From positions 1 to 22,887 of IMG/VR virus record IMGVR_UViG_3300042356_001651: DNA of 22,887 nt. One strand, 5' to 3'. Below, one piece after another: positions 3,340 to 16,762 of this stretch. Source of the DNA: a virus. Within the stretch, counting starts at the first letter, position 1. Every line of letters starts with the position of its first letter. The notes below the pieces were generated by a model. The model was given only the letters and a program-made list of their open reading frames with translations, was not told where the DNA came from and ran no database searches. The translations under genes were made by a program, and so were the position numbers.

Positions 3340-3425
3340 AGTCAGGTGGCGGAAGGGTAGACGCTATACTTAAGCAGTTGAAGCTGGGTAATTCAACAAT
3401 ACAGGTTCAAGTCCTGTCCTGACTA
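3340..3425 (+). tRNA. tRNA-Leu-like gene 1, anticodon arm abnormal
   Basis: The acceptor stem is perfect (AGTCAGG at 3340-3346, CCTGACT ending 3424). The D-stem is GCG/CGC with GGTAGA in its loop, the T-arm is ACAGG-TTCAAGT-CCTGT, and a discriminator A follows. The TGGCGG...GGTAGACGC block is typical of leucine tRNAs. Between D-arm and T-arm there is only a 12-base linker (TATACTTAAGCA) and one 6-bp hairpin (GTTGAA/TTCAAC with a nine-base loop), which sits where the long variable arm belongs. No regular five-base-pair anticodon stem with U33 can be drawn. CCA is not encoded. It may be degenerate or a non-decoding tRNA mimic. Confidence 0.55.
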
Positions 3426-3457
3426 CAAAAAATAAATCCACACAAACCCTTGCAATT

Positions 3458-3694: not shown

Positions 3695-3795
3695 AGTCAG
3701 GTGGCGGAATTGGTAGACGCTAATGATGTGAGATAGGTGGAAGCATATATGACACACAACCTATCATGCAGGTTCGAATCCTGTCCTGACTACCA
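3695..3795 (+). tRNA. tRNA-Leu-like gene 2, anticodon arm abnormal
   Basis: Shares the perfect acceptor stem AGTCAGG/CCTGACT, the D-arm block TGGCGGAATTGGTAGACGC and a regular T-arm (GCAGG-TTCGAAT-CCTGT) with the copy 350 bases upstream, and encodes ACCA at the 3' end. Between D- and T-arms lie an 11-base linker (TAATGATGTGA) and one long hairpin, GATAGGT/ACCTATC, with a 20-base loop. As in the first copy, no standard anticodon stem-loop fits, so the amino acid and codon cannot be assigned. It could be a variant leucine tRNA with an inserted segment or a tRNA-like decoy. Confidence 0.55.
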
Positions 3796-6453: not shown

Positions 6454-6525
6454 GCTCGATTCGTCTATCGGTTAGGACGTCAGGTTTTCATCCTGAAAAG
6501 AGGAGTTCGATTCTCCTATCGAGTA
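6454..6525 (+). tRNA. tRNA-Glu (UUC)
   Basis: A regular cloverleaf: acceptor GCTCGAT/ATCGAGT (first pair G-T), anticodon stem TCAGG/CCTGA with loop TTTTCAT (U33, anticodon TTC), T-arm AGGAG-TTCGATT-CTCCT, discriminator A. CCA is not encoded. The glutamate anticodon UUC reads GAA and GAG; GAA is abundant in this AT-rich genome, so this tRNA may supplement the host. Confidence 0.95.
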
Positions 6526-6551
6526 CAATTATTAACTTAAATTTAAAAATT

Positions 6552-8052: not shown

Positions 8053-9418
8053 ATGATATATTATGTAGGATCTGAAAGATTGATTGAAAGCGATTTTTAT
8101 ACTCAAAGTACATTGAAAGAATGTTTAGATTTTCTAAACAATAAATGTACAAGCATTGCATTAGATACTGAAACTCAAGGTTATTTCGACCATAAAAATA
8201 AAATAATAATGCTTCAATTAAGTAATGGAGTTGATGCGTTTGTTATTGATGTTCGTGTTATTGATATCTTACCATTAAAAGAAGTTTTAGAAAATAAATT
8301 ATGTATTTTACAAAATGCAAAGTTTGATTATAAATTTCTAAAACTACATGGTATAGAATTAAAAAATATTGCAGATACATTTTTAAATGAATGTATTTTA
8401 ACAAATGGTATTGAGAATAGAAAACTAGGATTAGATGCTATTGCTTTCAAATATTGTGATGTAGTATTAGATAAAACAGTTAGAAATGATTTTTCTAAAT
8501 TAATTGATAAACCTTTTACTGATAAACAAATCATTTACGGTGTAAGTGATGTATTATGTCTCCATGAAATATATGAAAAGCAAACTATTGAGCTTATTAA
8601 ATGGAATTTATTAAATGTTGCTCAATTAGAATACGAAACTTGTTTAACTTTAGCTGATATGGAATATACAGGAATGTATATTAATACAGATAAATGGAAA
8701 AACTTAGCTAGTAAAGCACAAAATAATACAGAGAAATTAAGTAATGAAATAGATGAAATGGTGTTTAACAACCCTAAATTATCTAAGTTTATTAAAAAAT
8801 ATAGTCAGTTAGATTTATTTGGTAAAGTAGAAAGGGTAATAGACATAAAATATTCATCTCCTTTACAATGTTTGAAAATGTTTAAACAATTAGGTTTAGA
8901 TATTCCTTCAACTAATGCAAAAGATTTAATAAAATACCAAAATTCTGAACCACTTGTAAAAAAGTTTCTTGATTATAAAGAAGAAGAGAAATTATTTACA
9001 ACTTATGGATATGAATTTTTAAATTTTATTAATCCTCACACTAATAAAATTCATACTGATTTCTTTCAAATACTTAATACTCACCGTATTAGCTCATCTA
9101 AACCTAACATGCAACAAATACCGGCAGATAAAGATTATCTTGCTTGTTTTGAAGCACCAAAAGGATTCAAAATAGTAGGTTGTGATTTTTCAGCACAAGA
9201 ATTGCGTTTGATAACAGAGCTTTCACAAGATCCTCTATGGGTAAAAACTTTTAATGAAGGTGGAGATATCCATTCTATTATAGCATCAAAAGTATTTAAT
9301 ATTCCTGAAGATAAAGTGAAAGATAACTTTGAATATCTGTATGTAGGTAAAGTAAAAGTGTTTTTAAGAGGTAAACCACCAAGACATATTGCTAAAGTAA
9401 TTAATTTTATGTTAGCCT
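8053..9418 (+). CDS. polA: Family A DNA polymerase, exon 1
   Basis: Exon 1 encodes residues 1-455 plus the first base of codon 456. The N-terminal 3'-5' exonuclease domain shows Exo I LDTETQ, Exo II NAKFDYKFL and Exo III YGVSDVLCLH. Polymerase motif A is CDFSAQELR, with catalytic Asp378. Motif B starts at RHIAKVINFMLA (Arg444, Lys448). The frame then runs into a nonsense tail LIKKNYI, because a group I intron begins after T9418. Joined to 10451, it restores INFMLAYGGS, a perfect motif B. The spliced enzyme is 620 residues, like other phage family A replicases lacking a 5' nuclease domain. It would act as the phage replicase. Confidence 0.92.
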
Positions 9419-10450
9419 TAATTAAAAAAAATTATATATAGTCAATTATATTATCTACCTTTGTACCAAAGCAAAGTTACAATGGAAGAAAATATAATTA
9501 AATTATCTAAAAATGGACTATTTCCTAAAGAAATAGCTGTAAAATTGAATTTAAAATATTATTATGTACTTAAAATATTTAAGAAGCACAGTTTAAGTCT
9601 TCAAGGTTCTGGAGGAACAAATAAAATTGTAAATAATAATTCATTTCTTAAAAAGAATGGTGATTATTGGTTAGGTTTTATTTCTGCTGATGGTAATTTA
9701 AGTAAAAAACAGTATTCTATATATTTAGGTATAAAGGATTTAGATCATATTATTAAATATCGAGATTTTATTAATTCTAAACTAAAAATTTATTATAAGC
9801 TAAATAAAGCTAACTCTACTATTGGAGTAATAGTTTTTAGAAATAGTGAAATTTGGAATTATTTAAATAAAATAGGCATAACACCAACTAAATCGCGAAC
9901 CTTTACTTATAAAAAAGAAATAAATTGGGAGTTTATAAGAGGGTATTTTGATGGAGATGGGTCTATTTCAAAAAATGAACCTAAAATTACTACTGGAAGT
10001 GAAAATTTTAAAAATCAATTATTAGAATTTTTTAAGTTAAATAATATAACTTATTCAGTAAGTATTAAAGGAAATAAAGTTTTTGATATTTATATTAGAG
10101 GAAACTCTAGATTTGATTTTTTTCATAATATATACAAAGAAAATTCAATTAAATTAGATAGAAAATATATAAAATACAGGGCAGCTCTAGAGAAATTTAG
10201 AGTAAAAAATATCGGATAAATTGCTGGAAAACCTTGAAGAGGGCAATCAGCAGCCTACTACTAATTTAAATGGTTAGTAAGGGTTCAACGACTAGATATT
10301 GAAACTATGAAAGTAGAATATAAAATATCCACGAACATCCGACATCTTAATAAATATTTTAAGATGATGATATAGTCTGAGCTGCACATATAACTTTAGT
10401 AAAGAAAGTGCAGAAGTACAAGATAAAGAGCTTGTACGATAACATAACTG
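9419..10450 (+). mobile_element. Group I intron in polymerase gene
   Basis: A 1032-base intron. The upstream exon ends in T and the intron ends in G, as the group I rule requires; joining restores codon 456 (TAC, Tyr). Core elements after the endonuclease frame: P4-P6 region GCTGG...AATCAGCAGCC, P7 GACTA (10290-10294) with TAGTC (10373-10377), P8 CATCTTA/TAAGATG (near 10342-10366), P9 CTGCAC/GTGCAG (10382-10413) and a further hairpin GTACAAG/CTTGTAC (10416-10438). The P1 guide pairing was not found. The intron encodes its own homing endonuclease. Confidence 0.9.
9482..10219 (+). CDS. LAGLIDADG homing endonuclease
   Basis: About 245 residues. An N-terminal helix-turn-helix-like segment (LSKNGLFPKEIAVKLNLKYY) precedes two LAGLIDADG motifs, YWLGFISADGN and FIRGYFDGDGS, each with the acidic residue that binds the catalytic metal. 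Two motifs in one chain mean a monomeric enzyme with pseudo-twofold symmetry. It would cut intronless alleles of the polymerase gene to spread the intron. ATG 9482 is preferred to TTG 9461. It lies in the 5' part of the intron, upstream of the catalytic core. Codon use is as AT-rich as the phage. Confidence 0.9.
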   Translation: MEENIIKLSKNGLFPKEIAVKLNLKYYYVLKIFKKHSLSLQGSGGTNKIVNNNSFLKKNGDYWLGFISADGNLSKKQYSIYLGIKDLDHIIKYRDFINSKLKIYYKLNKANSTIGVIVFRNSEIWNYLNKIGITPTKSRTFTYKKEINWEFIRGYFDGDGSISKNEPKITTGSENFKNQLLEFFKLNNITYSVSIKGNKVFDIYIRGNSRFDFFHNIYKENSIKLDRKYIKYRAALEKFRVKNIG

Positions 10451-10947
10451 ACGGTGGTAGTAAATTTAAGTTATCTGCAGTATTAGGTATTTCTGTAGAT
10501 GAAGCTGATACAATTATTACAGAGTATTTTAATCAAGTACCTAAAGTAAAAAGTGTATTAGAATCTTGTTCTAAATATGCGTTAAAGAATAGTTATATAC
10601 GTTCATTAAAACCATATTCTATTGTAAGACATTTTGAATATTCAAAAGAAGATTTAAAACAAGTTGGTGCAGTAGAAAGAGCAGGTAAAAACACGGTTAT
10701 ACAATCTAGTGGCGCGATGATGTGCAAGTTAGCATTAGTGAATATTCGTAAAAAAATTAAAACTTTAGATTATAAAGTAATTATGTTTTTACAAATTCAT
10801 GATGCAATATTCTGTTATGTTCAAGAAGATAAAGCTGAAGAATGGGCAGAGATACAAAAAGAAATAATGGAAGAAGCTGGTAGAGAATTTATCAAATCTA
10901 TACCAGTAAAAAGTGATGTTATAATATCAGATTATTGGTCTAAATAA
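10451..10947 (+). CDS. polA: Family A DNA polymerase, exon 2
   Basis: Continues the polymerase from codon 456 (two bases AC join T9418 to form TAC). It opens with the second half of motif B, YGGSKFKLS, then fingers/palm helices (EYFNQVPKV), and ends with motif C, LQIHDAIFCYV, near residue 573 of the spliced protein. The second motif C residue is alanine, where most family A polymerases have glutamate (HDE); the metal-binding aspartate (Asp573) is kept. The in-frame sequence upstream of 10451 belongs to the intron, so the apparent ATG at 10408 is not a real start. Confidence 0.92.
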
Positions 10948-12836: not shown

Positions 12837-12965
12837 ATGTCTTATATCTGCATAAGAACTTTTGAATCTTCTAAAGGAATAACCTACATCAAAAGTAGAG
12901 TTATTCCTGAAGAAGTTTATAAAACACTAAATATGCTAGAGCAAAAAAACTTTGTTAAACTATGA
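12837..12965 (+). CDS. Small hypothetical protein
   Basis: 42 residues (MSYICIRTFESSKGITYIKS, then RVIPEEVYKTLNML). A short beta hairpin and one helix are suggested. Its stop overlaps the next start as ATGA, an arrangement typical of real genes in this window. The leader TTTTTATAATAATG is A/T-rich. Family unknown. Confidence 0.55.
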   Translation: MSYICIRTFESSKGITYIKSRVIPEEVYKTLNMLEQKNFVKL

Positions 12966-13345
12966 AAAAATATAACATAGAATTATCAGAAGAACAAATG
13001 CGTTTGATTTCTCTTTGTCTTGAAGATTTATCAAGATTTGCAAGTGGTCAATGGGAACTTAGATACACCATTGAAGAAATGTTGCGTGGCTTACCATTTG
13101 ACGAACAAATGAAAAGACGTGACGAAGTCGAAGAACATTTAAAACAAGTCAAAAGAATTTTGTTACCTGGATTACCTGACAATACAAGCAAAGGATATAA
13201 TGGTTCTGATTTTATTGGTAACACCTATCAAATTTACAGAAGCATTTTACACCAACTTGCGATAGACAATAATTGGAATAATGTTTATTCTTCATCATCG
13301 TTACCTTCTGGTAATATGGGAACAATAAAAATAAAAAAAGCATGA
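12962..13345 (+). CDS. Conserved hypothetical phage protein
   Basis: 127 residues. N-terminal IELSEEQMRLISLCLEDLSR and FASGQWELRYTIEEML, with a central EEHLKQVKRILLPGLPDN, form a pattern seen repeatedly in hypothetical proteins of Bacteroidota phages. The C-terminal part (SDFIGNTYQIYRSILHQLAI) is helical. It is coupled by ATGA to both neighbours. It is the last clear backbone gene before the cassette array. Function unknown. Confidence 0.75.
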   Translation: MKKYNIELSEEQMRLISLCLEDLSRFASGQWELRYTIEEMLRGLPFDEQMKRRDEVEEHLKQVKRILLPGLPDNTSKGYNGSDFIGNTYQIYRSILHQLAIDNNWNNVYSSSSLPSGNMGTIKIKKA

Positions 13346-13527
13346 AAAGGTACTACCGATGCAAAGCAAAATTACCTTTGTTTATGTTTGGCAAGTCGCA
13401 GAAAGCCAAAGAAACCGACAAAAAGATAGTAGAAGAGTATGCCGAAATGCCTGAATTTAGCAGTAACCCACTTGACTTAGCCGCCAAAAGAATACATACA
13501 GTAATTGATGAAGAAAACCCTTTTTAA
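13342..13527 (+). CDS. Truncated or chimeric YRCK-type protein
   Basis: 61 residues. The first 20 (MKRYYRCKAKLPLFMFGKS) nearly match the start of the gene at 14959 at both protein and DNA level over about 58 bases, then the two diverge completely. The paralogue keeps CYRC and a second CRVC knuckle; here the first cysteine is tyrosine and the second knuckle is absent, so zinc binding is probably lost. The remaining helix-rich tail (TDKKIVEEYAEMPEFSSNPL) is unrelated. It overlaps the upstream gene as ATGA and ends one base before the next ATG. It forms the left border of the cassette array. Confidence 0.6.
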   Translation: MKRYYRCKAKLPLFMFGKSQKAKETDKKIVEEYAEMPEFSSNPLDLAAKRIHTVIDEENPF

Positions 13528-13528
13528 G

Positions 13529-13828
13529 ATGAAAACAAACAAAATATACAATGAAAACCGTCTTTGCAAAAACAATGTTATAAGCAGTTGCGATTGCTTA
13601 TTAGGATTTCTTAGCGGAGAAAAAGTAAACAAATCTACTATTGATTATGAAGTAAAAAGGCTTGTAAACATTCAACCGACTTTCAAAAAGTATGGATTGT
13701 TGAAGTGTGAACCACAAAGTAAAAGTCAAATAGTAGATGGTAGAAAAGGATATTTAAGTAGATTCGTTTACTGTCCTTATTGTGGCGAAAAAGTCAATTG
13801 GAAGCAGGTTCTTAGCAATTGCTTATAA
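13529..13828 (+). CDS. Cassette A protein, zinc-ribbon C-terminus
   Basis: 99 residues from ATG 13529. The end FVYCPYCGEKVNW is a C-x2-C zinc ribbon half; two cysteines near residue 19-22 (SSCDCLL) may complete it. The cassette proper begins at 13577, so the first 16 codons lie in the flanking half attC and the stop TAA is inside the next attC (CTTATAACG). Translation thus crosses a recombination junction, and a native start could be a non-ATG codon inside the cassette. It begins one base after the preceding stop. Function unknown. Confidence 0.55.
   Translation: MKTNKIYNENRLCKNNVISSCDCLLGFLSGEKVNKSTIDYEVKRLVNIQPTFKKYGLLKCEPQSKSQIVDGRKGYLSRFVYCPYCGEKVNWKQVLSNCL
13555..13585 (+). repeat. attC-like right half (site 0)
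   Basis: CCGTCTTTGCAAAAACAAT followed by GTTATAAGC (13577-13585), the R' type end seen in complete sites. No matching left arm was found upstream, so the site is probably truncated. It marks the left end of cassette A. Confidence 0.45.
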
Positions 13829-14017
13829 CGTGCCGAGTGTTGGCGTAGTTGCGGAAATTTTAAACTAAATATTATTATGAATACAGAAACAGTAACAGTG
13901 TTTGCAAAAGGTGAAGATTTTGAAATCATAGTACAGCATGACCAAAGCGGAAGTGCTTATGGAATGCCTTTATCGAAGAACGCATACGAGCAATTACGCC
14001 AACACTTTGTTAGCGGT
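13821..14017 (+). repeat. attC-like site 1
   Basis: Left end GCTTATAAC (13821-13829) and right end GTTAGCGGT (14009-14017). Inner arms are an exact 12-bp inverted repeat, AGTGTTGGCGTA (13836-13847) and TACGCCAACACT (13995-14006). The loop is long (about 147 bases) and holds the start of the next gene. The outer ends do not match each other but match the ends of cassettes A and B respectively. Confidence 0.6.
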
Positions 14018-14116
14018 TCGTTGGCCTTTTTAGGAAAGATATTGGAAGAAGAAATGTCCGCTGAATTACGAACTTGGTTGATGGAGTTGAATGTTAAGTT
14101 AGCCAATGACCGCTAA
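13877..14116 (+). CDS. Hypothetical protein spanning attC site 1
   Basis: 79 residues. The N-terminal half (MNTETVTVFAKGEDFEIIVQ, then GSAYGMPLSKNAYEQLRQHF) lies in the loop and right arm of attC site 1; the C-terminal half (LAFLGKILEEEMSAELRTWL...) lies in the very short cassette B. The start has a Bacteroidota-type leader (ATATTATTATG). The stop TAA is the first base triplet of the next attC (CGCTAACG). It could be one gene interrupted by, and still reading through, a recombination site. Family unknown. Confidence 0.5.
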   Translation: MNTETVTVFAKGEDFEIIVQHDQSGSAYGMPLSKNAYEQLRQHFVSGSLAFLGKILEEEMSAELRTWLMELNVKLANDR

Positions 14117-14208
14117 CGTTTTGCGTGTATGTGCAGTACGCATACGATGAACTTAATTATTAACAACAAATACTTATTAGCGTATTGCACATATACGCTG
14201 TTATAAGC
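14109..14208 (+). repeat. attC-like site 2
   Basis: Left end ACCGCTAAC, right end GTTATAAGC. Inner arms GCGTGTATGTGCAGTACGC and GCGTATTGCACATATACGC pair over 19 positions, with two G-T pairs and no true mismatch. The loop between (about 50 bases) is A/T-rich. The outer ends differ because they belong to cassettes B and C. Confidence 0.7.
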
Positions 14209-14225
14209 TGTAAAAATTACGATTT

Positions 14226-14492
14226 ATGGACTTAAAACTTCATTCAAACGACAAAATTAGATTAATAACTGGAAGTAGTAAAAATAACTTCATTGATTGC
14301 TCAGCAGAATATCAAGAGATGGCTTTAACTGTTTCTTTTTTATGCTCACAAACATATATGGAAATAAGAAGAAAAAACAATCAAGTAAAGACTTTTTATT
14401 TTGAAAGTAAAAGACATAAAAAAGAATTTGAGTTTGGATATTGGGAAGATGCAGAAGTTATTTTTGCGTTTAACGAGGTCGTTCACAAGTAA
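14226..14492 (+). CDS. Cassette C hypothetical protein
   Basis: 88 residues, starting MDLKLHSNDKIRLITGSSKN, with strand-rich stretches (ALTVSFLCSQTYMEI, KTFYFESKRHKKEFEF) and an acidic end. No signal peptide, span or catalytic motif. It is the only gene in cassette C and lies 18 bases after the left border. Its stop is followed 9 bases later by the next attC left end. Family unknown. Confidence 0.6.
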   Translation: MDLKLHSNDKIRLITGSSKNNFIDCSAEYQEMALTVSFLCSQTYMEIRRKNNQVKTFYFESKRHKKEFEFGYWEDAEVIFAFNEVVHK

Positions 14493-14500
14493 TTTTTATT

Positions 14501-14636
14501 GCTTATAACGTGCAGATGCTATACGAAGGCGGGAAATTAGATGCACACCCTGTCAGCCTTGCACAAATGACAAATAGATGCACAACTGTTCAATTGCGGA
14601 ACGCTGCCCCACTATTGGCAATATATTGTTGGCAGC
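14501..14636 (+). repeat. attC-like site 3
   Basis: Left end GCTTATAAC (14501-14509), matching cassette C; right end GTTGGCAGC (14628-14636), matching cassette D. Inner pairing is weaker than in sites 2, 5 and 6; CTGCC/GGCAG pairs locally near 14603-14635, and TAGATGCACA is directly repeated inside (near 14538 and 14576). It may be a fused or decayed pair of sites. Confidence 0.5.
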
Positions 14637-14651
14637 AGTTAAATTTAAATT

Positions 14652-14924
14652 ATGTTCAATTTATTCAAACAAAAAGAAGCTGTTTTATACAATGGCAAAA
14701 AAGTAAAGGAAGGTGATAAAATCTTTTTTATTAATTCCGATGGCGAAAGATTGGAAGATGTAATTAAAAGACGAACTCAAGATTATGAGTTGTCAAAACC
14801 CGCTGGGCACGAACCAAGATTTCAGAAACCACACGAAGATAAAGTTTTAAAAAAAGGGACTTTGTTTTTCTGGAATCCGTCATTTTTAATAACTGATTAT
14901 TTTACGGCAGATGTGGTCGATTAA
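14652..14924 (+). CDS. Cassette D hypothetical protein
   Basis: 90 residues, starting MFNLFKQKEAVLYNGKKVKE. The N-terminal part looks like a small beta barrel (AVLYNGKKVKEGDKIFFI), then a polar loop and a strand-rich end (TLFFWNPSFLITDYF). It fills cassette D, which is bounded by GTTGGCAGC and GCTGCCAAC, an exact inverted pair. No known function. Confidence 0.6.
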   Translation: MFNLFKQKEAVLYNGKKVKEGDKIFFINSDGERLEDVIKRRTQDYELSKPAGHEPRFQKPHEDKVLKKGTLFFWNPSFLITDYFTADVVD

Positions 14925-14926
14925 TT

Positions 14927-14955
14927 GCTGCCAACATAAATATAGACGCATTTAA
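14927..14955 (+). repeat. attC-like left half (site 4)
   Basis: GCTGCCAAC (14927-14935) is the matching end of cassette D, but no right arm follows. Instead the sequence reads ATAAATATAGACGCATTTAAAT and then the next gene. Nearly the same AATAGACGCA tract follows the last half site at 16530, suggesting a shared junction type. Confidence 0.45.
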
Positions 14956-14958
14956 ATA

Positions 14959-15171
14959 ATGAAAAGATGTTACCGATGCAAATTGCAATTACCTTTGTTT
15001 ATGTTTGGCAAGTCCAAACGTGCCAATTTAAGTTATGACAAAAAGCATTTAAGAACTTGCCGAGTGTGTACCTTTCGCATGGCTTCCGAGCCAGTTGTGC
15101 GTTTTAAAGAAGGTAAATACCATGTGGTTCAATTGACAATGATAGAACGGCTGAAAGAATTATTAAAATAA
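14959..15171 (+). CDS. Small YRCK-type zinc-finger protein
   Basis: 70 residues. CYRCK at residue 4-8 and CRVC near residue 35-38 give two C-x2-C knuckles; LPLFMFGKSKRANLSY lies between. Similar short proteins (MK-CYRCKLQLPLFMFGKS...) are known as hypothetical genes in Flavobacteria and their phages. It is the intact relative of the gene at 13342, and the pair flanks cassettes A-D. It follows a truncated attC and could be backbone sequence or part of cassette E. Confidence 0.65.
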   Translation: MKRCYRCKLQLPLFMFGKSKRANLSYDKKHLRTCRVCTFRMASEPVVRFKEGKYHVVQLTMIERLKELLK

Positions 15172-15270
15172 TGCTATTTAAGCCGTTTAAATTTTTTACC
15201 TTATAATAACACTAAAACTATATTTGCGTTTAACAGAAAGCCTAAAACAAGGCAAAAACAAGATGTATTT

Positions 15271-15471
15271 ATGAAAGCTAAACAAAAGCCATTGCCAAAA
15301 GTCCAATTTGGGGTTTATGATTCCAAACACGATGGACTAATAAAGGTAGATTTAGTTGATACCGAGACGTGCAGATTTACTTACCTAGAACGCAATAAGC
15401 CAAGCATAACCACCACCATAAAGCATTTGGAATTGATGGTTTGGTATGGCTCTTTTGTGTTAAAAAATTGA
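15271..15471 (+). CDS. Cassette E hypothetical protein
   Basis: 66 residues, starting MKAKQKPLPKVQFGVYDSKH and continuing with alternating strands (GLIKVDLVDTETCRFTYLER, then TTTIKHLELMVWYG). A compact beta fold is likely. It is followed 13 bases later by attC site 5. The 99 bases upstream hold only a short GCCT..AGGC hairpin near 15240. No known family. Confidence 0.55.
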   Translation: MKAKQKPLPKVQFGVYDSKHDGLIKVDLVDTETCRFTYLERNKPSITTTIKHLELMVWYGSFVLKN

Positions 15472-15484
15472 AAATGAAAATACA

Positions 15485-15584
15485 GCTTATAACGTATCGG
15501 GGCTTTGCGTAGTAGCCCTTAGTAGAAACTTAAAATTAACCACGACACTTGATGGGGCTATTACGCAAAACCCTTGTTATGTGC
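15485..15584 (+). repeat. attC-like site 5
   Basis: Left end GCTTATAAC, right end GTTATGTGC. Inner arms GGGGCTTTGCGTAGTAGCCC (near 15499-15518) and GGGCTATTACGCAAAACCC (near 15555-15573) pair almost completely, allowing G-T pairs. The outer ends belong to two different cassettes and do not match each other. This is one of the clearest sites. Confidence 0.7.
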
Positions 15585-15600
15585 CGTTAAATTTAGAAAG

Positions 15601-15801
15601 ATGATTGACTTTACAAAAGAACTGGATAGATTTTCAAACAAAAGTATTTCGTTTGAAATCAATTCCAAAACAAATGAACTTGAAATTGATAGTGAGGAAT
15701 ACACAAAAAATGGACTAAGTGTAGATAGACATACTTTTAATTTGTCAAAAGACGAAGCAAAAAAGATAGTCGAATACTTGTCTGAGTGGGTGTCTGCTTA
15801 A
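15601..15801 (+). CDS. Cassette F hypothetical protein
   Basis: 66 residues, starting MIDFTKELDRFSNKSISFEI. Strand-rich centre with many asparagine and glutamate residues, and a C-terminal helix (SKDEAKKIVEYLSEWVSA). It fills cassette F, bounded by GTTATGTGC and GCACATAAC, an exact inverted pair. Start at ATG 15601 rather than an in-frame TTG at 15574, which lies inside the attC. Unknown function. Confidence 0.6.
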   Translation: MIDFTKELDRFSNKSISFEINSKTNELEIDSEEYTKNGLSVDRHTFNLSKDEAKKIVEYLSEWVSA

Positions 15802-15803
15802 TG

Positions 15804-15888
15804 GCACATAACGTTTGTGGCTTTGCGTTCGTTAGCGAAGCAAAGCCTTGTGTGGTCGGGCTAATGACCACAAACCGCTGTTATGTGC
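15804..15888 (+). repeat. attC-like site 6
   Basis: GCACATAACG...CGCTGTTATGTGC with inner arms TTTGTGG/CCACAAA and a further GGCTTTGC/GCAAAGCC stem around GTTCGTTAGCGAA. Here the outer ends do match each other, since cassettes F and G share the same end sequence. The stop of the previous gene is two bases away. Confidence 0.7.
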
Positions 15889-15927
15889 TAAGCGGTTTAT
15901 CAGCACTAAATTTAATTTAAAAAAGAA

Positions 15928-16071
15928 ATGGAAGCACTAAAAGAAATGTTAACTGAGTTTATTGATTGGGCAAGAGATTGCGGTGAAGATGCGTGGTATA
16001 TATTTGAAAATACCGATGAATCAATCGAACGATTTTTTAAAGAAACTCAGTCGGACGAAGACGAGGAGTAG
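15928..16071 (+). CDS. Cassette G small acidic protein
   Basis: 47 residues (MEALKEMLTEFIDWARDCGE, then AWYIFENTDESIERFFKETQ, ending SDEDEE). Strongly acidic and probably all-helical. It ends in TAG, the only TAG stop among the genes annotated here, consistent with a foreign origin. It follows an A-rich leader (AAAAAAGAAATG). Family unknown. Confidence 0.55.
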   Translation: MEALKEMLTEFIDWARDCGEDAWYIFENTDESIERFFKETQSDEDEE

Positions 16072-16075
16072 CCTT

Positions 16076-16211
16076 GCCACTAACGGTTCACGGCTTGCCG
16101 TCAGGGCGGGTATTGAACCACAAAACTTGAATAGAATTACTAACTTTTAAATAACAACAAAATGTCAAACGAAGAACTGAACCCCGCCTTGCGGCAAACC
16201 GATGTTAGGCG
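16076..16211 (+). repeat. attC-like site 7
   Basis: Left end GCCACTAAC, right end GTTAGGCG (16204-16211). Inner arms GGCTTGCCGTCAGGGCGGG (near 16094-16112) and CCCCGCCTTGCGGCAAACC (near 16183-16201) pair well with one small bulge. The left end resembles but does not exactly match the start of cassette G. Confidence 0.6.
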
Positions 16212-16536
16212 TTGTTTTACTTTTTTCAAGTCAGACGAATACCCTAACGGTGCGATTAAAATAACAAAAGAAGATGCTTTAAAATTGCAAGAAATTGGAT
16301 GGTCGGTAAACTTCCATACAGATTATTATTTGAACTTTATTGGATGTAATTTCAATGGGTTAGAAATATTTTTTTGTAATTGGATGAGTAATTTAGATGC
16401 TGTAATAAGCACACCTGAAGTTGGATATTATTCTGATTCTTGGGGTGAAACTGTAAAGTTCAAAAGTCAAGAATGTCTTGATGCTTTTGTAGATACTATT
16501 TCTAACTTGGTGTGGTTGTCAAAAAATAACGCCTAA
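16162..16536 (+). CDS. Cassette H hypothetical protein, starts in attC
   Basis: 124 residues. The first 14 codons (MSNEELNPALRQTD) are the right arm of attC site 7; the rest (FFKSDEYPNGAIKITKEDAL, then GWSVNFHTDYYLNFIGC...) lies in cassette H. No in-frame ATG follows before about residue 75, so either translation starts in the site or a non-ATG codon near 16210 is used. Strand-rich, with no catalytic motif. Its stop overlaps the closing end CGCCTAAC. Confidence 0.55.
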   Translation: MSNEELNPALRQTDVRRCFTFFKSDEYPNGAIKITKEDALKLQEIGWSVNFHTDYYLNFIGCNFNGLEIFFCNWMSNLDAVISTPEVGYYSDSWGETVKFKSQECLDAFVDTISNLVWLSKNNA

Positions 16537-16560
16537 CTCACAAATAGACGCAACAATTAA
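16530..16560 (+). repeat. attC-like left half (site 8), right border of array
   Basis: CGCCTAAC (16530-16537) closes cassette H, but no right arm follows. The next bases TCACAAATAGACGCAACAAT resemble those after site 4, and then the phage backbone gene at 16574 begins. This is taken as the right border of the cassette array. Confidence 0.5.
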
Positions 16561-16573
16561 ATTTAAAATCAAA

Positions 16574-16762
16574 ATGAAAGATAAAACAGTCGAAAAAGTA
16601 ATTAACCGATTTTTGGAAAGGTCGGAACTTGGAATTAAAAAATATGGTACAACTCTTGACAAAAATAACTTACCTTTGTCAGAGTGGTTAAAACACAGTA
16701 TTGAAGAAAAGATGGACGACATCTTATATATGCAAAGAATAATTGATGAATTAGATAAATAA
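16574..16762 (+). CDS. Small MazG-like protein
   Basis: 62 residues. RFLERSELGIKKYGTTL near residue 12, then WLKHSIEEKMDDILYMQRII, recall short phage proteins related to all-alpha NTP pyrophosphatases (the E-E-x-x-D-D pattern may bind Mg2+). It is shorter than full MazG domains, so it could be a subunit or a degenerate copy. The return to AT-rich codon use marks re-entry into the backbone. A larger pyrophosphatase is two genes downstream. Confidence 0.55.
   Translation: MKDKTVEKVINRFLERSELGIKKYGTTLDKNNLPLSEWLKHSIEEKMDDILYMQRIIDELDK

Follow-up and report, generated by a model that had tools for sequence, protein, structure and literature searches.

A row of phage gene cassettes probably built by integron-type recombination with an Xer/IntI-like recombinase lacking the IntI insertion

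Classical integrons consist of tandem one-gene cassettes with complementary ends, whose attC sites fold as single-strand hairpins bounded by outer AAC...GTT boxes, recombine at the AAC/GTT box and share one polarity toward an attI site lying beside the recombinase gene. Clusters of attC sites lacking an integrase (CALINs) have also been described in phages, 17 of them by Qi et al. (2023, PMC9892861), including one in Polaribacter phage P12002L whose cassettes include DNA methyltransferases. These traits recur in the system to which the array described here belongs, an integrase-less cluster at 13577-16537 of a 22,887-base stretch of DNA from a phage of Bacteroidota-type hosts (IMG/VR record IMGVR_UViG_3300042356_001651, positions 1-22,887; hereafter the window). 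With a probability of roughly 0.8, we consider that this block consists of gene cassettes in a row, built and rearranged by integron-type site-specific recombination, involving an Xer/IntI-like recombinase without the IntI insertion; the proposal draws on sequence comparisons that establish the cassettes, their ends, the hairpin family, a turnover precise to the single base and the association with a recombinase.

The differences from the described systems are as instructive as the likenesses. Compared with the classical integron, the present recombinase lacks the IntI-specific insertion (59-60 amino acids (aa) from the K box to HxLRH, versus 106 aa in IntI1), the hairpins have two invariant G.T pairs and no regular extrahelical base, and the phage cassettes are inverted, with attC 5' rather than 3' of the gene. 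The additional domain of IntI is reported to be necessary for its activity (Messier and Roy 2001, as cited in PMC2426708 and PMC7790495), extrahelical bases set the choice of attC strand (PMC2727003), and integron integrases are thought to owe single-strand recombination to an acquired I2 helix that docks these bases (PMC7790495). The 17 published phage CALINs include no phage-type recombinase of the present kind, whereas in well over 50 phage contigs the array type considered here goes together with one recombinase clade, which has an attI of its own. XerA, XerC and XerD likewise lack the IntI insert, and XerA is the best NCBIfam model of the phage recombinase, which differs from them in adjoining hairpin cassette arrays and an attI-like site and in forming a separate main phage clade. 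Arrays of this kind are also carried by isolates, namely Flavobacterium phages mumin and hattifnatt and Polaribacter phage Freya, with methyltransferase genes between the hairpins of mumin and whole-cassette differences among Freya isolates; the publications on these isolates (PMC7077304, PMC8776804) contain no description of cassettes or integrons, and the Freya recombinase was interpreted in the isolate paper as a sign of lysogeny. The literature consulted, which excludes bioRxiv preprints and includes few subscription journals, holds no account of the present pairing of recombinase and array, of the cassette orientation or of the scale. With attC clusters in phages already known (Qi et al., 2023), what appears to be new is the recombinase, the orientation and the scale.

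The + strand of the window carries phage replication genes (family A DNA polymerase, helicase, DnaB-like helicase), and the block is a run of small open reading frames (ORFs) with imperfect palindromes between them, amounting to about seven cassettes. Each unit would consist of a single-strand attC-like hairpin, GTT, a gene and AAC, and the AAC end would join either the first base of the next cassette (AAC followed by G) or an attI-like site (AAC followed by NNNNNTATA). The features are as follows, with E values from the covariance model and p values from the bacterial attI matrix treated below.

12962-13345, + strand: ORF of 127 aa, no known family, in the block absent from the collinear relative L015; its own hairpin is missing here
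13342-13527, + strand: ORF of 61 aa, with a paralogue at 14959-15171 (85% over 61 nt)
13577-13829, + strand: cassette 1, core GTTATAAGC ... GCTTATAAC; ORF from ATG 13529 to stop 13828; own hairpin lost
13830-14117, + strand: cassette 2, hairpin S1 (13830-14008) and GTTAGCGGT...ACCGCTAAC; ORF 13877-14116, its start inside the hairpin loop
14118-14509, + strand: cassette 3, hairpin S2 (14118-14199), ORF 14226-14492, end GCTTATAAC; E 1.6e-15
14510-14935, + strand: cassette 4, degenerate hairpin region S3 (14510-14627), ORF 14652-14924, end GCTGCCAAC
14936-14951, + strand: attI-like array end, AAC followed by ATAAATATAGACGCAT; weak, p 0.012
14959-15171, + strand: 70-aa ORF lying between the two segments of the array; paralogue of 13342-13527
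15271-15493, + strand: ORF 15271-15471, then TACAGCTTATAAC, the right-hand end of an older cassette
15494-15812, + strand: cassette 5, hairpin S5 (15494-15575), ORF 15601-15801, end GGCACATAAC; E 7.8e-16
15813-16084, + strand: cassette 6, hairpin S6 (15813-15879), ORF 15928-16071; E 1.1e-4; homologous to a cassette in phages mumin and hattifnatt
16085-16537, + strand: cassette 7, hairpin S7 (16085-16203), ORF 16162-16536 with its start in the loop, end GCCTAAC; weak, 14 bits, E 0.86
16538-16553, + strand: attI-like array end, AAC followed by TCACAAATAGACGCAA, ahead of the ordinary phage gene at 16574; p 0.0017

The ends of these units were what had first suggested an integron-like array in a reading made from the letters of the window alone (the sequence-only reading). 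The six end pairs at issue (13577/13821, 14009/14109, 14200/14501, 14628/14927, 15576/15804 and 16204/16529) are all exact 9-mer reverse complements, and the interval 13501-16600 contains eight exact 9-mer pairs of the form GTT-6N...6N-AAC against 0.34 expected (at most 3 in 200 dinucleotide shuffles). The observation that complementarity runs along the cassette and not within a repeat is general over a wider set of related sites, in which the six bases next to AAC/GTT match perfectly along the cassette in 49% of cases (n=184) versus 1.5% within one hairpin site (n=323). The block also differs from its surroundings in composition, as had been claimed (GC 0.31-0.36, the flanks being mostly at 0.25-0.30). 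Terminal inverted repeats of 9-21 nt on every unit might equally be read as the ends of miniature inverted-repeat transposable elements (MITEs), or the hairpins as plain terminators between genes. The repeats, however, differ from unit to unit (TTATAAGC, TTAGCGGT, TTGGCAGC, TTATGTGC, TTAGGCGT) and adjoin head to tail in a single orientation, and simple terminators neither travel with the next gene nor end at one base, which makes this explanation highly improbable. The constant terminal inverted repeats of a transposon or MITE are not found, AAC/GTT being the only part of the ends that does not vary.

Comparison with related phages indicates that the window units are real, moving cassettes. 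The relative L015, collinear over about 16 kb with 77-83% identity in long matches, runs from window position 12984 straight to 16565 with nothing between, and this empty site implies that the insert includes ORF 12962, whose homologue in L005 (88% identity) is enclosed in an attC cassette, in a different phage. No target-site duplication was seen in the L015 comparison, although no systematic search was made, and a helicase query for relatives found none. Cassette 5 (319 nt, from the base after one AAC to the end of the next) is identical at 318 of 319 positions in L022 and L045, with flanks at 25-34%. Turnover is also apparent beside the recombinase genes described below, where the contigs L108/L109/L111, L116/L117 and L121/L122 are identical over 500 nt from attI onward and share only 4-6 nt before it, L108, L109 and L111 having different cassettes immediately before the attI-like site. 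Among the Polaribacter phage isolates Freya_1 to Freya_10, the arrays of the seven compared measure 0, 842, 1744, 2216, 4040, 4635 or 4942 nt from a fixed gene to the recombinase; their common parts are identical and all breaks fall at AAC, which also holds for one exact 902-nt loss within an array.

These breakpoints bear on the possibility that the array is a fossil, its cassettes having spread by homologous recombination between phages through shared hairpins with no current site-specific reaction. Some sites are indeed degenerate (S3), and near-identical hairpins such as S5 would offer short homology; homologous crossover in a hairpin would nevertheless scatter the breakpoints, which instead lie exactly at AAC with merely 4-6 nt of upstream sequence in common, and the linkage is always to one side of the hairpin (239 to 4, see below), so that we judge the fossil array distinctly unlikely. 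Cassettes gained and lost among relatives, together with the empty site of L015, are what the sequence-only reading had proposed to look for; the circumstances it had named as telling against it, namely identical arrays in relatives, lack of an attC fold or a chimeric contig, were not encountered, the contig itself being without a read-level check.

The orientation of the cassettes follows from the hairpin shared most widely, S5, which is present in 46 viral and 6 Bacteroidota contigs. In its copies the stretch before AAC differs nearly always, and GTT and the leader to the start codon are conserved, as is the end of the same cassette. When 660 pairs of related hairpins are compared, 239 share the flank downstream and 4 the flank upstream. 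Each phage hairpin thus travels with the gene downstream, which inverts the cassettes relative to classical ones, and the earlier claim of ORFs pointing toward their repeat had assigned the repeat to the wrong gene, the hairpin belonging to the gene that follows. The sharing of cassette 5 between unrelated flanks and the linkage to the downstream gene together place the exchange directly after AAC on the coding strand (between G and TT on the other strand). Many unrelated genes occupy one conserved frame spanning the stop codon to the start codon. A chromosomal array of mixed orientation was observed in a Weeksella contig (L016), with mostly classical genes and one S5-type cassette inverted in the phage fashion; that genome yielded no partner recombinase.

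The hairpins form a family that can be modeled independently of the window, since the covariance model was built from 24 sites of recombinase-bearing phage contigs with the window left out. Compensatory change is found in 18 of 25 pairs, two G.T pairs are invariant in all 24 sequences, and the consensus stem has no regular bulge. The model recovers 15482-15587 (E 7.8e-16), 14106-14211 (E 1.6e-15) and 15801-15891 (E 1.1e-4) in the window, scoring far higher on the + (coding) strand (86 versus 27 bits), and the fold expected of attC, a hairpin with AAC...GTT outer boxes and an inner stem, is present. Model matches also flank each methyltransferase gene in phages mumin and hattifnatt; there were none in 20 classical-IntI loci plus L014 and L015 (293 kb) or in a class 1 integron piece (L156). 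Single-strand folding, proposed earlier as a check, gives long hairpins at most sites, whereas the repeat at 14501-14636 no longer folds as one. With the coding strand as reference, the stems contain 423 G.T mismatches versus 82 A.C ones, which makes the coding strand the better-folded one; by this asymmetry and by analogy with integrons, it would be the coding strand that folds into a hairpin, is cut and is transferred.

A candidate enzyme emerged from four viral contigs with the S5 hairpin, in which a tyrosine recombinase lies directly behind the array on the same strand (one gene being truncated). A related recombinase is encoded in 178 viral contigs, and terminase genes in eight large ones (113-362 kb) identify the recombinase contigs as phages. 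Hairpins lie upstream of the gene in 59 of the 67 loci with enough upstream sequence and downstream in 1 of 72, and their polarity follows the recombinase strand in 179 cases against 1. A conserved attI-like site (AAC followed by TATTATATAT; 63 distinct sequences) is found 36-52 nt before the gene, so that these phages have what defines an attI, a site beside the recombinase with cassette turnover exactly there. The protein is 263-270 aa long, its K box to HxLRH region about 48 aa shorter than in VchIntIA (2A3V), and XerA (NF040815), the best model, gives 140-206 bits against a cut-off of 220, no model's cut-off being reached. In the tree, 28 of 29 phage recombinases group together with 99/97 support, separately from IntI (99/99) and the XerC/D rows; L074 lies outside the main phage clade, and the deep relations are unsure. 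The predicted structure (predicted local distance difference test score 86) is closest to VchIntIA and XerA. The phage recombinase is not IntI, and the additional domain of IntI (the I2 region) is absent from it. The IntI-type partner that had been expected is not the one that goes with these sites, nor is the array the oddity it had been taken for, arrays of this kind being common in Bacteroidota phages. In one contig (L077, 1498-2223, - strand) the 5' part of the recombinase gene is replaced by cassette sequence, in frame through the attC hairpin, a cassette insertion that likely disabled the recombinase.

A sister system with the classical cassette orientation exists in Bacteroidota chromosomes. 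Its recombinases, mostly 340-390 aa, have an N-terminal extension and likewise lack the insert (64-69 aa versus 106 in IntI1); the hairpins follow the recombinase gene, 32 of the 38 loci containing 93 model matches in all, of which 92 lie opposite to the recombinase in strand (strands tallied by hand), and ORFs lie on the recombinase strand 13 to 1, as in the classical gene order. An attI-like site, TATAAACAAG immediately before TT, occurs about 100 nt past the recombinase stop codon in 23 of the 38 loci versus 1.4 expected from shuffles; this motif was settled after inspection of the first 19 loci, and a stricter one matched 6 of 38. The enzyme would accordingly be a tyrosine recombinase of an Xer/IntI-like clade without the IntI insertion, its gene just behind the attI-like site in many related phages, with the N-extended sister clade beside the chromosomal arrays. 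A Bacteroidota chromosome (G159, loci L189 and L224) was also seen to carry a phage-type attI and a 268-aa recombinase, and is perhaps a prophage at that locus.

Such host enzymes must be distinguished from classical IntI, which could have moved ordinary integron cassettes that the phage merely picked up, as in a plain CALIN. Bacteroidota have been described as nearly devoid of complete integrons, with In0 elements only and one complete integron in Salinibacter (PMC9024848). Full-length classical IntI genes are nonetheless present in 84 of 297 sampled Bacteroidota genomes (loci L157-L188), phage CALINs are published, and of six phage attC sites assayed IntI1 recombined five, one of them from a Polaribacter phage (PMC9892861). 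Yet the surroundings (8-16 kb) of 20 classical IntI genes from Bacteroidota contain no hairpin of the present kind; the hairpins keep company with the non-IntI recombinase in the phage and bacterial proportions given above, the genes are inverted relative to attC, and invariant G.T pairs stand in place of extrahelical bases. Movement by classical IntI is thus unlikely.

The window array itself would rely on an enzyme supplied in trans. Its two segments end in AAC followed by TCACAAATAGACGC (p 0.0017) and AAC followed by ATAAATATAGACGC (p 0.012), and these attI-like ends in the absence of a recombinase gene make a host-type recombinase, or the enzyme of a co-infecting phage, the likeliest agent. 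Array ends in other recombinase-less phages score on the same matrix in L026, L055, L023 and L031 and do not in L034, L036 and L043. Several points weigh against the interpretation favored here, namely cassettes built by integron-type recombination. No tyrosine recombinase (Phage_integrase) is found in the 22.9-kb window or in L005, L006, L007 and L015, and the enzyme acting on the window array is known by inference only; the first attI-like end (14936) matches weakly. Part of the window array may be dead, S3 being degenerate, S7 scoring weakly and S1 being missed by the model. Several of the compared contigs may share one sampling site and thus not be independent. The Freya hairpins barely fit the model (best E 0.04), and the Freya system, apparently related through its recombinase (36% identity) and breakpoints and not through hairpin sequence, seems to be a more distant relative. 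The central claim of the sequence-only reading, an attC cluster without a recombinase in a phage, stands on the covariation-supported hairpins, the gain and loss of cassettes in relatives, the empty site and the lack of a tyrosine recombinase in the window.

As for the cargo, the ten window cassette proteins showed no convincing family in Pfam and PHROGs. Among 30 larger cassette proteins of recombinase-bearing phages, nine match Pfam, eight as DNA methyltransferases and one as an exoribonuclease. This predominance of methyltransferases among the recognizable genes makes evasion of restriction the likely benefit of the arrays, which would permit a rapid swap of accessory genes, elsewhere mostly methyltransferases shielding phage DNA from restriction. 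This agrees with published plating data on the mumin phages: among Flavobacterium phages, how well a phage plates is associated with its methyltransferase content (PMC7077304).

Outside the block, a LAGLIDADG ORF (9461-10219) separates two parts of the family A DNA polymerase gene (8053-9441 and 10408-10947), which suggests that an intron or intein carrying a homing endonuclease interrupts it. ORF 2429-2773 has an Lcl_C domain and an unusually GC-rich 3' end (about 2670-2770) with many aromatic and Asn codons, and presumably resembles the target gene of a diversity-generating retroelement. Three tRNA genes lie at 3340-3426, 3695-3792 and 6454-6526, namely Leu (AAG) and Glu (ARAGORN) and a further one at 3695-3792 (Rfam only), and ORF 515-1372 matches the spore photoproduct lyase family.

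The findings point to a second, largely unrecognized lineage of integrons through which phages trade genes, DNA methyltransferases among them. In its full form this proposal, an Xer-like Bacteroidota and phage recombinase without the I2 helix, invariant G.T wobbles in the role of extrahelical bases as marks of the hairpin strand, and inverted phage cassettes that carry site and 5' leader before the gene, is tentative, and we would put it at a little less than an even chance. A recombinase without the I2 region acting with hairpins without extrahelical bases would make the role of I2 in single-strand recombination directly testable, and the conserved stop-to-start frame holding unrelated genes bears on how genes become cassettes. 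If the proposal is true, the apparent dearth of complete integrons in Bacteroidota would be explained, some phage 'integrases' taken as lysogeny genes would be cassette shufflers, and phages would have a mechanism for fast exchange of DNA methyltransferases among themselves.

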